Assembly: GCA_026645935.1 (NCBI GenBank)
Contig: JAPKMP010000023.1
Span: forward strand, 1-56,030
DNA length: 56,030 nucleotides
Source of the DNA: Candidatus Villigracilaceae bacterium
GTDB lineage: Bacteria; Chloroflexota; Anaerolineae; Anaerolineales; Villigracilaceae
Reading direction: 5' to 3'
Below the pieces are notes generated by a model. That model did no database searches and was not told the origin of the DNA. It was given only the letters and a program-made list of their open reading frames with translations. This document shows positions 45,782 through 51,300 of this stretch, one piece after another (positions within the stretch are counted from its first letter, which is position 1; each line of letters opens with the position of its first letter). The position numbers and the translations under genes were made by a program.

Positions 45782-46453
45782 ATGAAAAAAATTTCCATCC
45801 TGTTGTTGTTACTGCTTGCGGCATGCGGTCCTTCCCGGGAATCGCAGGTTGTTCTTCCCAATCTTTTGCCGACGGCGACGGCTTATATCGACCCTTCCTA
45901 TCCGACAGCACAGGCAAACCTGAGTGCTCCGCAGCAAACCGCTGCTGGTATCGAAGTGCGCATGAACCGCGCGTGGGTGGAGGGTAAAAACGTCAATGCT
46001 GAAGTTTGTTTTACCCTGCCGGATGCATCCGATTGGTCCATCTGGGCGGCAAGTTTGACGTACGGCAATACATACTTGCAGGAATATGGAACGACGTTGG
46101 TAAGCCTCCAGGAATCCGCGAATGGCCAGCCTGGTCAGAGGTGCGATATTTTGACCTTTGTCGTCCCGCCGGATGCGGATTTGACGAATTCTGTGATTGC
46201 GATCGACGCCATCTCTGCAGTGCCCCAGCTGACAGACTACTGCGATATCTATCTTCCAAAGATCCAGGAAGCCATGCTTGAAAGGGGAACTGGCATCTCA
46301 GTGGATTGTTTCGATGTGAACGGCACCCTGACCATGCAGATCACCGGCAAACCCGCTGAGATGTCGCAGGAACAGGCGGAACAAATCGTCTACAGCGACG
46401 AGTTTTATACGGTACGCGGTCCGTGGAGTTTCCCGTTCAATTTGTCGCAATAA
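45782..46453 (+). CDS. Lipoprotein of unknown function
   Basis: 223 aa from ATG 45782, giving MKKISILLLLLLAACGPSRESQ with an excellent lipobox (LAAC, Cys15). AAGGAG lies 12-17 nt upstream; an ATG at 45770 overlaps that site and is unlikely. The mature protein has a beta-rich middle (GIEVRMNRAWVEGKNVNAEVCFTLPDASDW) and several Cys, and no recognised domain. The last third mentions ITGKPAEMSQEQAEQIVYSDEFYTVRGPW. Its position between a TIGR01777 protein and the tyrS leader suggests no shared pathway. The tyrS promoter -35 overlaps its last codons. Confidence 0.75.
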   Translation: MKKISILLLLLLAACGPSRESQVVLPNLLPTATAYIDPSYPTAQANLSAPQQTAAGIEVRMNRAWVEGKNVNAEVCFTLPDASDWSIWAASLTYGNTYLQEYGTTLVSLQESANGQPGQRCDILTFVVPPDADLTNSVIAIDAISAVPQLTDYCDIYLPKIQEAMLERGTGISVDCFDVNGTLTMQITGKPAEMSQEQAEQIVYSDEFYTVRGPWSFPFNLSQ

Positions 46454-46470
46454 AATTCCTGATGTATAAT
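46442..46470 (+). promoter_or_regulatory. Promoter of the tyrS leader
   Basis: TTGTCG (46442-46447), 17-nt spacer, then perfect TATAAT (46465-46470). Six bases (ACCGGC) separate it from the leader-peptide ATG at 46477, so the transcript would begin at or within a base or two of that ATG. Confidence 0.7.
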
Positions 46471-46476
46471 ACCGGC

Positions 46477-46527
46477 ATGTTTCTCAAACTTTCTGCCACG
46501 CAATACCCTTATTATCCCCGCTCATAG
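46477..46527 (+). CDS. Tyr-rich leader peptide of tyrS (attenuator control peptide)
   Basis: A 16-codon frame that reads MFLKLSATQYPYYPRS and stops at TAG (46525-46527). Tyr codons are at 46504 (TAC), 46510 and 46513 (TAT TAT), interleaved with Pro. It starts 6 nt after a TATAAT box with no Shine-Dalgarno, as in three other likely leaderless genes here. Directly downstream are an antiterminator and an intrinsic terminator that share bases, then tyrS. A ribosome stalled at the Tyr codons for lack of Tyr-tRNA would leave the antiterminator free; one that reaches the stop codon would cover its 5' arm and let the terminator form. Evidence is sequence-only, but the arrangement is specific. No Rho-like or T-box signal was seen. 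Confidence 0.72.
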   Translation: MFLKLSATQYPYYPRS

Positions 46528-46571
46528 CCCAACTGCGATGGTGTCAATGAACGCGCCCCATCATCGCGGGC
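46527..46571 (+). promoter_or_regulatory. Antiterminator of the tyrS attenuator
   Basis: GCCC (46527-46530), a 4-nt bulge AACT, then GCGATGGTG (46535-46543) pair with CATCATCGC and GGGC (46559-46571): 13 pairs including one G-U. The 5' arm starts at the leader stop codon. The 3' arm takes bases 46568-46571, which belong to the terminator's 3' arm, so the two structures exclude each other. Confidence 0.7.
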
Positions 46572-46583
46572 GCGTTTTTGTTT
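46550..46583 (+). terminator. Attenuator terminator upstream of tyrS
   Basis: AACGCGCCC (46550-46558) pairs with GGGCGCGTT (46568-46576), nine pairs with a 9-nt loop, followed by TTTTTGTTT. This is a strong intrinsic terminator placed 23 nt after the leader stop and about 40 nt before tyrS, so it must be bypassed for tyrS to be expressed. Confidence 0.88.
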
Positions 46584-46623
46584 GTATCATTACGACCGCA
46601 CGGTCTTGCAAGAGGAGAAGCAA

Positions 46624-47835
46624 ATGAACATTGATGAGCAAGTTGAACTGCTTATGCAGGGAACCGATTATGGCGACAAAGAGTTACAGAAAGCCATGGC
46701 TGCGGAACTGCGGGAACGGTTATTGATATCGGACAAGGAAAAACGCCCGCTGCAAGTGTACTGCGGTTACGACCCGACATCGACGGATTTACATCTGGGG
46801 CACACCATTTCCATGCGAAAGCTGCGTCAATTTCAGGACCTGGGCCATGATGTGACCTTTTTGATCGGAAACTATACGGCCTTGGTCGGCGACCCTTCGG
46901 ATAAAAATAAGGCGCGTCCGGTCCTCACCCAGGAGCAAGTCGCTGAAAATTCAAAAACATACGCCGAGCAGGCGTTCCGTGTATTGGATCGCTCAAAGAC
47001 AAAGGTCCGATACAACGGGGAATGGCTGGGCGAACTCTCGCTGGTGGATTTGATCCGACTTGGACAAAATTTCACCGTCCAACAATTCTTGGCGCGCGAG
47101 AATTTTGCAAGGCGCCTTGAAAAAGGAGAGCCGATCTTCCTGCACGAAACATTCTACGCGCTGATGCAAGGTTACGATGCCGCTGCAATGAAAACCGATG
47201 TGCAGGTCGGCGGATCGGACCAGTTGTTCAACATCATCGTGGCGGGACGTAAACTTCAGGAAACCCTCGGCCAGAAGCCGTTGGTCGGCATTATCACCGG
47301 CATATTGCCCGGCACAGACGGCATCCAGCGAATGTCCAAATCCACGGGCAACATTGTGCCCATCAACACCGGCGCGGACGATATGTTCGGCAAGTTGATG
47401 TCGATCCCGGATTCCGCGCTGGGAATCTATATGCGGCTTGTCACCCGCTTCAGCCCGCATGAAATTGCACAGATCGAGAAGGATGTGACTTCAGGGGCGC
47501 TTCATCCACGAGATGCGAAGATGAAAATGGCGGGGGAGATCACCAGTATCTTCTACGGTGAGGCGGAGGCTGAGTCGGCGCGGGAAAATTTTGTCAAGAT
47601 GTTCCAACAAAAGGAAGTTCCCGATGAAATGCCGGAGTATGAGTTGGAATCTGGTCAGACCATTGTCGATGTGATCCTCGGGGCGGGGATGGCGGAGAGT
47701 AAAAGCAAAGCGCGGCAGTTAATCGACCAAAAGGGCGTCCGCCTCGATGGGGAAGTGCTCATGCGGGGCGATGCTATATTTCCACATCCGGGTGTCTTGC
47801 AAGTCGGCAAACGGCGCTTTGTGCGTGTGAGGTAA
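46624..47835 (+). CDS. tyrS: Tyrosyl-tRNA synthetase
   Basis: 403 aa from ATG 46624 (AGGAG 6-7 nt upstream); the frame opens at 46582 but only this start has a site. Class I motifs: VYCGYDPTSTDLHLGH (HIGH as HLGH) and MSKSTGN (KMSKS). VGGSDQLFNI binds tyrosine/adenylate. The last 60 residues are an S4-like RNA-binding tail (LESGQTIVDVILGAGMAESKSKARQLIDQKGV). The long SDKNKARPVL insertion and S4 tail fit the TyrRS type common in many bacteria. It charges tRNA-Tyr with tyrosine. Expression is probably attenuated by a Tyr-rich leader peptide. A hairpin follows at 47841. Confidence 0.95.
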   Translation: MNIDEQVELLMQGTDYGDKELQKAMAAELRERLLISDKEKRPLQVYCGYDPTSTDLHLGHTISMRKLRQFQDLGHDVTFLIGNYTALVGDPSDKNKARPVLTQEQVAENSKTYAEQAFRVLDRSKTKVRYNGEWLGELSLVDLIRLGQNFTVQQFLARENFARRLEKGEPIFLHETFYALMQGYDAAAMKTDVQVGGSDQLFNIIVAGRKLQETLGQKPLVGIITGILPGTDGIQRMSKSTGNIVPINTGADDMFGKLMSIPDSALGIYMRLVTRFSPHEIAQIEKDVTSGALHPRDAKMKMAGEITSIFYGEAEAESARENFVKMFQQKEVPDEMPEYELESGQTIVDVILGAGMAESKSKARQLIDQKGVRLDGEVLMRGDAIFPHPGVLQVGKRRFVRVR

Positions 47836-47870: not shown

Positions 47871-47871
47871 G

Positions 47872-47943
47872 AGGCGTCGACGGGATTTGAACCCGTGAAT
47901 GAGGGTTTTGCAGACCCTTGCCTTACCACTTGGCCACGACGCC
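47872..47943 (-). tRNA. tRNA-Cys(GCA)
   Basis: Reverse strand folds as a 72-nt tRNA. Acceptor stem GGCGTCG/CGACGCC; anticodon loop reads TCTGCAAAA with anticodon GCA; T loop is GTTCAAATC. Discriminator is U, as expected for tRNA-Cys. CCA is not encoded. The D loop is short (GTGGTAAGGC region). Confidence 0.93.
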
Positions 47944-48000
47944 GATAAACAAAAGGATTGCTGACCGAAAGCGATGTTCAATCTGCAATCCTCCAGTTTG

Positions 48001-48072
<72 letters not shown>

Positions 48073-48096
48073 GTTTTCGACCGGTTTGGTCGAGAG

Positions 48097-48169
48097 TGCC
48101 GAGACCCAGGATCGAACTGGGGACACCGCGATTTTCAGTCGCGTGCTCTACCAACTGAGCTATCTCGGC
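48097..48169 (-). tRNA. tRNA-Phe(GAA)
   Basis: Reverse strand folds with acceptor GCCGAGA/TCTCGGC, D loop AGCTCAGTTGGTAGAGC, anticodon GAA in CTGAAAATC, T loop GTTCGATCC, discriminator A. CCA not encoded. First of the three tRNAs from the promoter at 48201-48229. Confidence 0.94.
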
Positions 48170-48375: not shown

Positions 48376-51300
48376 ATGGCATCCTTGCCCCAGAAGAGTT
48401 ACGCGAGAATACCAGTCAGCCTAGATTTACCCAACCTGATCGAAGTACAGCTAGATTCATTTGAACGATTGAAGAAGGAGGGATTGGGGGACTTGTTCCA
48501 CGAAATCTCTCCGATCGAATCCTATAACAAGGGAATGAAATTATTCTTTCCCAGCCGCGGCCCCGAATCACAGCAGTGGGGGTTGAAATATTGGTTTGGC
48601 GATCCGAAACACACCATCGAAGAATGCGTCGAGCGCGACCTAACCTACGCCAGCCCTTTGTATGTATCCGTTCTGCTTGCTGGAACGGACGTCCCGGAAC
48701 CCATTAAACAGGATATCTTTTTGGGCGACTTTCCCGAGATGACTGACAAGGGCACATTCATTGTTAATGGAACGGAGCGTGTTGTCGTTTCGCAGTTGAT
48801 CCGTTCCCCGGGTGTTTATTTCGAAGCTCCTGCGGATCGCGCGACTGGACGCCTGCTTTCCATGGCTAAGCTGATCCCCGACCGCGGGGCATGGATGGAG
48901 TTCGAAACCCGCAAGTCGGATTATATTATCCTGAAATTCAACCGCAAAAGAACCGTTCCCATCACGGTATTTTTGCGCGCTCTTGCCGCCGTCAACGATG
49001 GAACAAAGGATTCTCCGATCAAACACGGCACAGACGAAGAGATCCTCTCCTTATTCAAGGATGTGGACAACAATCCCGACCGTCTGTTCATCACTTCCAC
49101 CATTAAGCAGGAACCGGATTGGGATCTAGGCAACCACACCATCGCTGAGGCGGCTTTGATCGAATTCTTCAAGAAAATGCGTCCGGGCGATCCCGCTACA
49201 CTCGACAACGCCCGTCAATTTCTCGAAGAGCAGCTTTTCGACCAACGGCATTATGACCTGGAGCGGGTGGGGCGCTATAAGTTGAATCAAAAACTCGACT
49301 TGAACATCCCAATCCCGCATCGCACAGTGACAAAGAATGATATCCTGCGGTTGATCCGTCGAATGATCCAGATCAATAACGGCTCGGAACGTTCGGACGA
49401 TATCGATCACCTCGGTAATCGCCGTGTCAAGACGGTGGGTGAGTTGATCCAGAACAAACTCCGCATTGGTTTGCGCCGCATGGAGCGCGTGATCAAGGAA
49501 CGCATGTCCATTCGCGACCAGGAACAGTTGTCGCCGGTGACCCTCGTCAACATCCGTCCGGTGGTGGCGGCATTGCGCGAGTTTTTTGGCTCTTCCCAGT
49601 TGTCTCAATTCATGGATCAGACCAATCCTTTGGCTGAATTACGCCACAAACGGACATTGTCCGCATTGGGTCCGGGTGGGTTGCGCCGTGAACGCGCCGG
49701 TTTCGATGTGCGTGATGTTCATCATTCCCACTACGGACGTATCTGCCCGATTGAAACGCCGGAAGGTCCGAATATCGGTTTGATCGGGCGTCTTGCCTCT
49801 TTTGCGCGCGTGAACGAATATGGTTTTATCGAAACACCCTATCGCAGGGTGTACAAATCCCTCCCCGCCGACAGCGATCTCCTGGACGGACGTACTCTCC
49901 GCGAAGATGTCTACGACCCGAAATCGGAGGAGCTGCTTTTCAAGGCGGGAACCGAGATAGATTCCAAGGTGGCGAAACGGCTGTCCCGCCTGAACTCGGA
50001 AATTGCCATCGTTCCGTTTGTATCCGACGATGTTGTTTACCTGTCCGCAGATGCTGAGGACAAATACACCATCGCCCAGGCAAATGCGGCGTTGACTGAA
50101 AAGAAGGAATTTTCGCGCGAACGAATTTCATGTCGATATCATTCCGGCTTCCTGTTTTCCACCGCCGAAAATCTGGATTTCATGGATGTTGCCCCGCATC
50201 AAGTCGTGGGCATCAGCGCGGCGTTGATTCCCTTCCTTGAACACGACGATGCCAACCGGGCGCTCATGGGATCGAACATGATGGCGCAGGCTGTGCCGCT
50301 GGTCCGGCCAGAAATTCCGCTTGTTTCGACGGGTATGGAAAGGCATGCTGCCCTGGATTCAGGCCAAGTCGTAGTGGCTGAGGCGGACGGTGAGGTTGTC
50401 TCCGTGACCGGATCAAGCATCACGGTCAAGGAAAAACGAACCGGCAACCGGATCTATCCGCTCCGCAAGTATCAGCGTTCCAATCAAAGCACATGCATCG
50501 ACCAGCGTCCTTCTGTTGTGAAGGGTCAGGTCATCAAAGCCGGTGACATTATCGCCGATTCGTCTTCGACCGATAATGGTCAACTTGCGTTGGGACAAAA
50601 TGTGGTCATCGCATTCCTCTCGTGGGAAGGAGGCAATTTCGAAGATGCCATACTGCTATCTGAACGTCTTGTTCAGGATGATCGTTTCACTTCCGTACAC
50701 ATCGAAAAGTACGAAGTGGAGGCGCGCGACACTAAACTGGGACCCGAGGAAATCACCCGCGATATTCCCAATGTCGGTGACGATGCCATCAAAGACCTCG
50801 ATGAAAACGGAATCATCCGCATCGGCGCCGAAGTCGGGCCGAACGATATTCTTGTCGGCAAGATCACGCCGAAAGGCGAGAAGGAACTTACTCCTGAAGA
50901 ACGTCTTTTGCGCGCCATCTTTGGCGAGAAATCCCGCGATGTGAAAGATACCTCCCTGCGGATGCCCCATGGTGAACGAGGCAAGGTCGTCGATGTAAAA
51001 GTATTTACCCGGGAAGAAAACTCTGACCTCGCCGCTGGCGTGGACCAGATGGTGCGTGTATCTGTCGCCCAGCGTCGCAAGATCACTGCAGGAGACAAGA
51101 TGGCGGGTCGGCACGGAAACAAAGGTGTAGTTTCGAAGGTTGTACCTGTCGAAGATATGCCGTTTCTTGAAGACGGCACTCCCGTTGATATCATCCTAAA
51201 TCCGCTTGGTGTGCCCGGACGTATGAATATTGGACAGGTTCTCGAAGTCCATCTCGGATGGGCGGCTAAGCGTCTTGGTTACCGCGCCCTTACCCCTGTG

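Follow-up and report, generated by a model that had tools for sequence, protein, structure and literature searches.

Leader-peptide attenuators are known in Proteobacteria and Actinobacteria, and His leaders preceding hisS/hisZ have been added in bacilli (PMC2965389) and His leaders in Firmicutes (PMC9413887). In Actinobacteria, trp, trpS, leuS, ilv and cys cases are listed, whereas no conserved structures were reported for other amino acid pathways apart from ileS T-boxes (PMC1262725). Leaderless short ORFs with a run of the regulatory amino acid have been described for the polycysteine attenuators of mycobacteria (Canestrari et al. 2020; PMC9031893). By comparison, tyrS in Firmicutes is controlled by a T-box, and T-boxes have been reported in two Dehalococcoides genomes (PMC2494555). 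In the literature that we searched, which did not include most subscription papers, no tyrosine leader peptide and no leader-peptide attenuator in Chloroflexota was seen, and PMC4833913 contains no occurrence of tyrosine or tyrosyl. Here we analysed a window of 56,030 nt (contig JAPKMP010000023.1 of assembly GCA_026645935.1, a Candidatus Villigracilaceae bacterium of the order Anaerolineales), in which a tiny tyrosine-rich reading frame upstream of tyrS very probably switches on this gene when charged Tyr-tRNA runs short.

The earlier note had proposed that a 16-codon Tyr leader, an antiterminator of 13 pairs and an intrinsic terminator of nine pairs plus a U-run control tyrS by trp- or pheST-type logic, and our analysis confirms these elements to the base (Table 1). 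Two refinements emerge. First, the note placed the start of the antiterminator 5' arm at the leader stop codon, whereas the four outer pairs are not conserved across the genus, and the conserved core starts 10 nt after the first base of the stop. Second, the spacing between the -10 hexamer and the ATG, which the note missed, implies that the mRNA probably begins at the leader's start codon. The promoter match by itself is at chance level for the region, and the promoter and terminator scan did not list the terminator, whose nine-base loop exceeds its limit. The region MFE was not significant and was not used as evidence.

Table 1. Features of the tyrS leader region and its surroundings (window positions).
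Position	Strand	Feature	Remarks
46442..46447	+	-35-like hexamer TTGTCG	10 of 12 matches with 17-nt spacer; such sites at chance level in the region (3 found, shuffle mean 2.3)
46465..46470	+	-10 hexamer TATAAT	ends 6 nt before the leader ATG; +1 expected at or next to 46477 (inferred leaderless mRNA)
46477..46527	+	leader ORF MFLKLSATQYPYYPRS	ATG at 46477; 16 codons; stop TAG at 46525-46527
46504..46515	+	regulatory codons Tyr-Pro-Tyr-Tyr	Tyr at 46504-46506, 46510-46512 and 46513-46515; last Tyr codon 12 nt before the stop
46527..46530	+	outer antiterminator 5' bases GCCC	able to pair with 46568-46571; not conserved across the genus
46535..46543	+	core antiterminator 5' arm GCGATGGTG	region that a ribosome at the stop codon would cover (inferred)
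46550..46558	+	terminator 5' arm AACGCGCCC	intrinsic terminator 46550-46579
46559..46567	+	terminator loop CATCATCGC	also the antiterminator 3' arm
46568..46576	+	terminator 3' arm GGGCGCGTT	
46575..46579	+	U-run (U5) of the intrinsic terminator	
46613..46617	+	Shine-Dalgarno-like AGGAG of tyrS	read by eye
46624..47835	+	tyrS, tyrosyl-tRNA synthetase (403 aa)	PF00579 E 1.5e-67; S4 domain E 1.3e-6
47871..48169	-	tRNA-Cys, tRNA-Gly and tRNA-Phe	between tyrS and a 1298-aa rpoB-like ORF (named by eye) at 48376

The antiterminator and the terminator are mutually exclusive. The segment 46527-46571 folds into exactly 13 pairs, 46527-46530 with 46568-46571 and 46535-46543 with 46559-46567 (-16.9 kcal/mol), whereas the terminator segment 46549-46577 folds at -17.7 kcal/mol. 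In folds of transcripts growing from the stop codon in steps of three, the antiterminator is the best structure from 46568 to 46574 and the terminator from 46577. With the bases up to 46536, 46538 or 46540 masked, as by a ribosome at the stop, the terminator forms. However, the MFE of the complete leader is the terminator in every state modelled, also with a ribosome stalled at any of the three Tyr codons (-20.6 to -23.9 kcal/mol), while with such a stalled ribosome the antiterminator is best when the transcript ends at 46570 (-15.6 to -16.3 kcal/mol), so that antitermination would have to be kinetic. In the model that we favor, transcription starts at the leader ATG and a ribosome follows RNA polymerase. 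When Tyr-tRNA is charged, the ribosome runs to the stop codon and, if its footprint has the expected length, sits over the antiterminator 5' arm, and the terminator forms before tyrS. When charged Tyr-tRNA is short, the ribosome stalls on the Tyr codons, and the free arm pairs with the terminator's future loop as soon as that is made, so that the terminator does not close in time and tyrS is transcribed. The start site, the translation of the leader, the ribosome footprint, the kinetic trapping and the response to charging are inferred.

Consistent with this model, the layout is conserved within the genus. A search of 61 genomes (the window's own plus 60) found tyrS in 57, including 35 of the 37 same-genus genomes, and all 35 of these loci share the order TATAAT, start codon, 14-17 codons with adjacent Tyr, stop and terminator. 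The TATAAT lies 6 nt before the start in 34 loci and 7 nt in one, the start is ATG in 34 and GTG in one, and the distance from stop to terminator is 22-26 nt. Tyr is the commonest residue (113), YYY occurs in 28 loci, and both codons are used (TAT 71, TAC 42) in otherwise variable peptides. A 36th same-genus locus (L070, of a 2.7-Mb genome, G159) has lost the leader and terminator, and a TATAAT now sits just before its tyrS. In addition, a same-family locus (L072) has a TATAAT and a terminator-like hairpin before tyrS, but no Tyr leader was found. An alternative in which the peptide is a TnaC-like arrest peptide sensing free tyrosine or another ligand in the exit tunnel is very unlikely. A conserved short ORF before an alternative structure, and a more conserved peptide end (YxYxxGL before the stop) outside the order, would fit it, but apart from Tyr the residues vary widely among the 35 peptides, which are only 14-17 residues long, and the gene-tail forms described below have quite different residues before the Tyr.

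In an alignment of the 35 loci (32 distinct sequences), the antiterminator core is 95.8% and the terminator 99.0% paired, and one antiterminator pair changes on both sides (G-C to A-U in 6 sequences). The covariation score of both helices together is 0.096 against 0.080 in shuffles (0 of 500 as high), although this test does not correct for kinship, and the number of pairs with double changes does not exceed shuffles (451 of 500 as high). A covariance model of the region after the stop, searched in 57 genus genomes, gave a match in 49, of which 48 were strong (E 7.7e-15 or better, one per genome) and one weak. Of the 48, 35 are the rows from which the model was built and 13 are new, and the two of these 13 that were inspected (L348 and L349) lie before tyrS with a Tyr leader, that of L349 having two non-adjacent Tyr. 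Six weak extra hits occurred in four genomes. Eight genomes had no hit, comprising two in which no tyrS had been found, G159 with its deletion, and five others.

Among named genomes, a scan of 450 relatives kept the best 80, titled mostly Anaerolineales or Chloroflexi MAGs, many of which are the same assemblies as above, so this is not an independent sample. Of 79 loci with enough upstream DNA, 56 have the separate leader, 12 the gene-tail form, 3 the upstream gene only and 8 neither, and a few leaders keep two non-adjacent Tyr (L247, L252, L278). The strict layout (exact TATAAT, N4-8, start, 7-40 codons, terminator) lies upstream of 56 of the 79 loci and occurs in 0 of 790 dinucleotide shuffles. 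All 56 have at least two Tyr in the last 13 codons, whereas the next residue, Ser, reaches that in 23. These observations bear on the simplest alternative, an ordinary intrinsic terminator of the upstream gene with a chance short ORF and another tyrS promoter downstream. An ORF that is lipoprotein-like by eye, without a Pfam match, ends at 46453, terminators between genes are common, and promoter-like sites in the region are at chance level. However, a TATAAT sits between that gene and the terminator at a fixed 6-nt distance from the ORF start in 34 of 35 loci, the ORF keeps Tyr codons with mixed synonymous codons, the spacer pairs with the loop, and shuffles did not reproduce the layout, making this explanation very unlikely.

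Interestingly, in other families of the order there may be no separate leader. A gene for a ~170-aa PH-like protein (two hydrophobic stretches by eye; weak bPH_6 matches, E 0.0014 and 0.0044 in the two proteins tested, below cut-off) lies before tyrS and ends in YYxRx, with the terminator after its stop. Searches with an alignment of this protein found it in 8 of 61 genomes among the relatives and in 82 of 301 genomes of the order, of which 77 genes were read, the other five having only short fragments. A class search found it in 0 of 150 genomes, but that set held four non-g1 genomes of family f1 and none of families f6-f9, f12 or f14 (our family and genus labels), where the gene is common. 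By an automatic test (terminator arm starting 12-75 nt after the stop), 44 of 47 genes with a terminator have at least two Tyr in the last nine residues, against 2 of 30 without one, and among those beside tyrS the counts are 44 of 46 against 2 of 23 (Fisher 2.2e-15 and 2.2e-13). These values ignore kinship. On the tree of the PH-like protein, built without the last 14 residues, the terminator changes 8 times and the Tyr tail 11 times, and only about 2 independent pairs remain on well supported branches (p 0.5), so that this control lacked power. The 44 come from seven families (f1, f6, f7, f8, f9, f12, f14). The last Tyr codon is exactly 12 nt before the stop in 42 of 44 tails and in 48 of 75 distinct separate leaders.

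In three loci (L175, L180 and L192), the PH gene is followed at once by a TATAAT-N6-ATG leader (MISRLYAYYPEIP, MQVRSISYYFSLD and MFASLYPYYYAIF, respectively) and then by the terminator and tyrS. The PH tail has one Tyr in its last nine residues in L175 and L180, and two in L192. Family f5 is the natural negative, as 11 of its 12 loci (L212-L223) lie beside tyrS, none has a terminator by the test and none has two Tyr in the last nine residues. The tail could instead be a functional C-terminus of the PH-like protein without a regulatory role. It is shared within clades of the protein, and two loci keep two Tyr without a detected terminator (L192 and L164, the latter with YYY and tyrS). We regard this as unlikely, since homologues without a terminator after the gene lack two Tyr in 28 of 30, among them L175 and L180, which have a separate leader, and since the distance of the last Tyr codon to the stop is that of most separate leaders. 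It is probable, though not established, that the charging sensor for tyrS can be the C-terminal end of an unrelated full-length protein gene, that selection for Tyr-tRNA sensing fixed YYxRx and the stop on a PH-like membrane protein, and that separate leaderless leader peptides replaced it, or arose beside it, in several lineages, with intermediates that carry both. Leader peptides could thus originate from, or be captured by, ordinary genes, and regulatory codons may hide in the last codons of annotated proteins, where a search for short leader ORFs would not look.

The arm sequences change entirely between genera (GCGATGGTG/CATCATCGC here, ACGTTTTGCGT/ACGCAAAACGT in locus L167 and CGCTTTACG/CGTAAAGCG in locus L160), while the layout and the Tyr codons stay. 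A regulatory protein, for example TyrRS itself, that binds the leader RNA and switches the terminator with the Tyr codons being incidental would be expected to conserve sequence. This reading is very unlikely, although autoregulation by E. coli threonyl-tRNA synthetase is mentioned in PMC2965389. In single-base spacer shuffles, p was at or below 0.05 in 26 of 35 genus loci and in 22 of 46 gene-tail loci with a terminator (L154 was left out as it has no tyrS). When spacers were swapped between 52 non-identical loci (one for the genus, six other separate leaders and 45 gene tails), the own spacer paired with its own terminator loop and 3' arm better than the median of other loci's spacers in 40 of 52 (Wilcoxon 8e-7), comprising 35 of 43 outside family f8 and 5 of 9 in f8. 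Thus family f8 (L147, L148, L155-L158, L161, L163, L165) and L150 do not show this antiterminator, and in 8 of the 9 f8 folds all or part of the stop codon lies in a hairpin before the terminator.

Beyond the order, of 63 class loci scanned, one of which (L076) is in the window's family, 12 have a short ORF with YxY near its end, in a scan without a shuffled control. Two other leader types appear. The first, YxYxGG[DG]YAP (L080, L085, L087, L089, L146), has a hairpin inside the ORF and a terminator 31-43 nt after the stop, and pairing of its spacer with the terminator loop is not supported (p 0.13-0.94). The second, Y[ITV]Y[SCPF][SAG]GL followed by the stop (L119, L123, whose stop lies 137 nt before tyrS, L125, L132, L134, L142), has its last codons and stop in a long hairpin with downstream bases, followed by a terminator-like hairpin, without a relevant Rfam match. 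By the automatic test used for the named genomes, most class loci show no leader, 21 of 27 in one set (5 with leader, 1 too short) and 37 of 40 in the other.

We next compared tyrS with other synthetase genes for T-boxes. Rfam at its own cut-offs listed only three tRNAs in the window, a permissive scan of 46300-46750 gave one chance-level match (Mahella-1, E 3.2, other strand), and 17 relative loci gave only a microRNA-family match in one (L041), far below its cut-off. T-box matches at E 0.001 or better occur in 150 of 150 class genomes, over the family cut-off in 126, with seven in the window's own genome, although 5 of 14 control genomes also gave a signal. In a search of two genomes, pheS of the same genome (L308, 88.9 bits, E 4.3e-18, just below the cut-off of 93) and pheS of the second (L305, 106.3 bits, E 1.4e-22) match, as do three PF00587 loci (L310, L316 and L320; 84.2, 77.3 and 58.7 bits, all below the cut-off), whereas the tyrS loci (L343 and L340) do not. 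One genome thus seems to use two kinds of charging sensor for its synthetases. Upstream sequences of pheS, the four PF00587 genes and one of two trpS copies were read in six genomes, by eye only, and no leader peptide was seen at those without a T-box match.

Taken together, the tyrS locus has a leader ORF with clustered cognate codons, an intrinsic terminator before the gene and a mutually exclusive antiterminator, as trp/his/pheST-type attenuators appear to have, and likewise precedes a synthetase gene. It differs from them in the amino acid and gene, in its occurrence in Chloroflexota, in a probably leaderless leader mRNA, in an antiterminator 3' arm that is the terminator loop, and in relatives where the codons are the tail of a full gene, while a 1:2 protector hairpin is not established. 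It would add tyrosine and tyrS to the amino acids and genes under leader-peptide attenuation, and gives a natural series of gene tail, tail plus leader, leaderless leader and loss. With the mycobacterial polycysteine attenuators it shares a short, probably leaderless ORF with a run of the regulatory amino acid, but those act on cysteine-related operons, and no conserved terminator hairpins were reported at the mycobacterial cys leaders (PMC1262725), whereas here an intrinsic terminator precedes tyrS. Compared with the tyrS T-box of Firmicutes, the gene, the proposed signal (Tyr-tRNA charging) and transcription antitermination are the same, while sensing here would be by a translating ribosome instead of direct tRNA binding.
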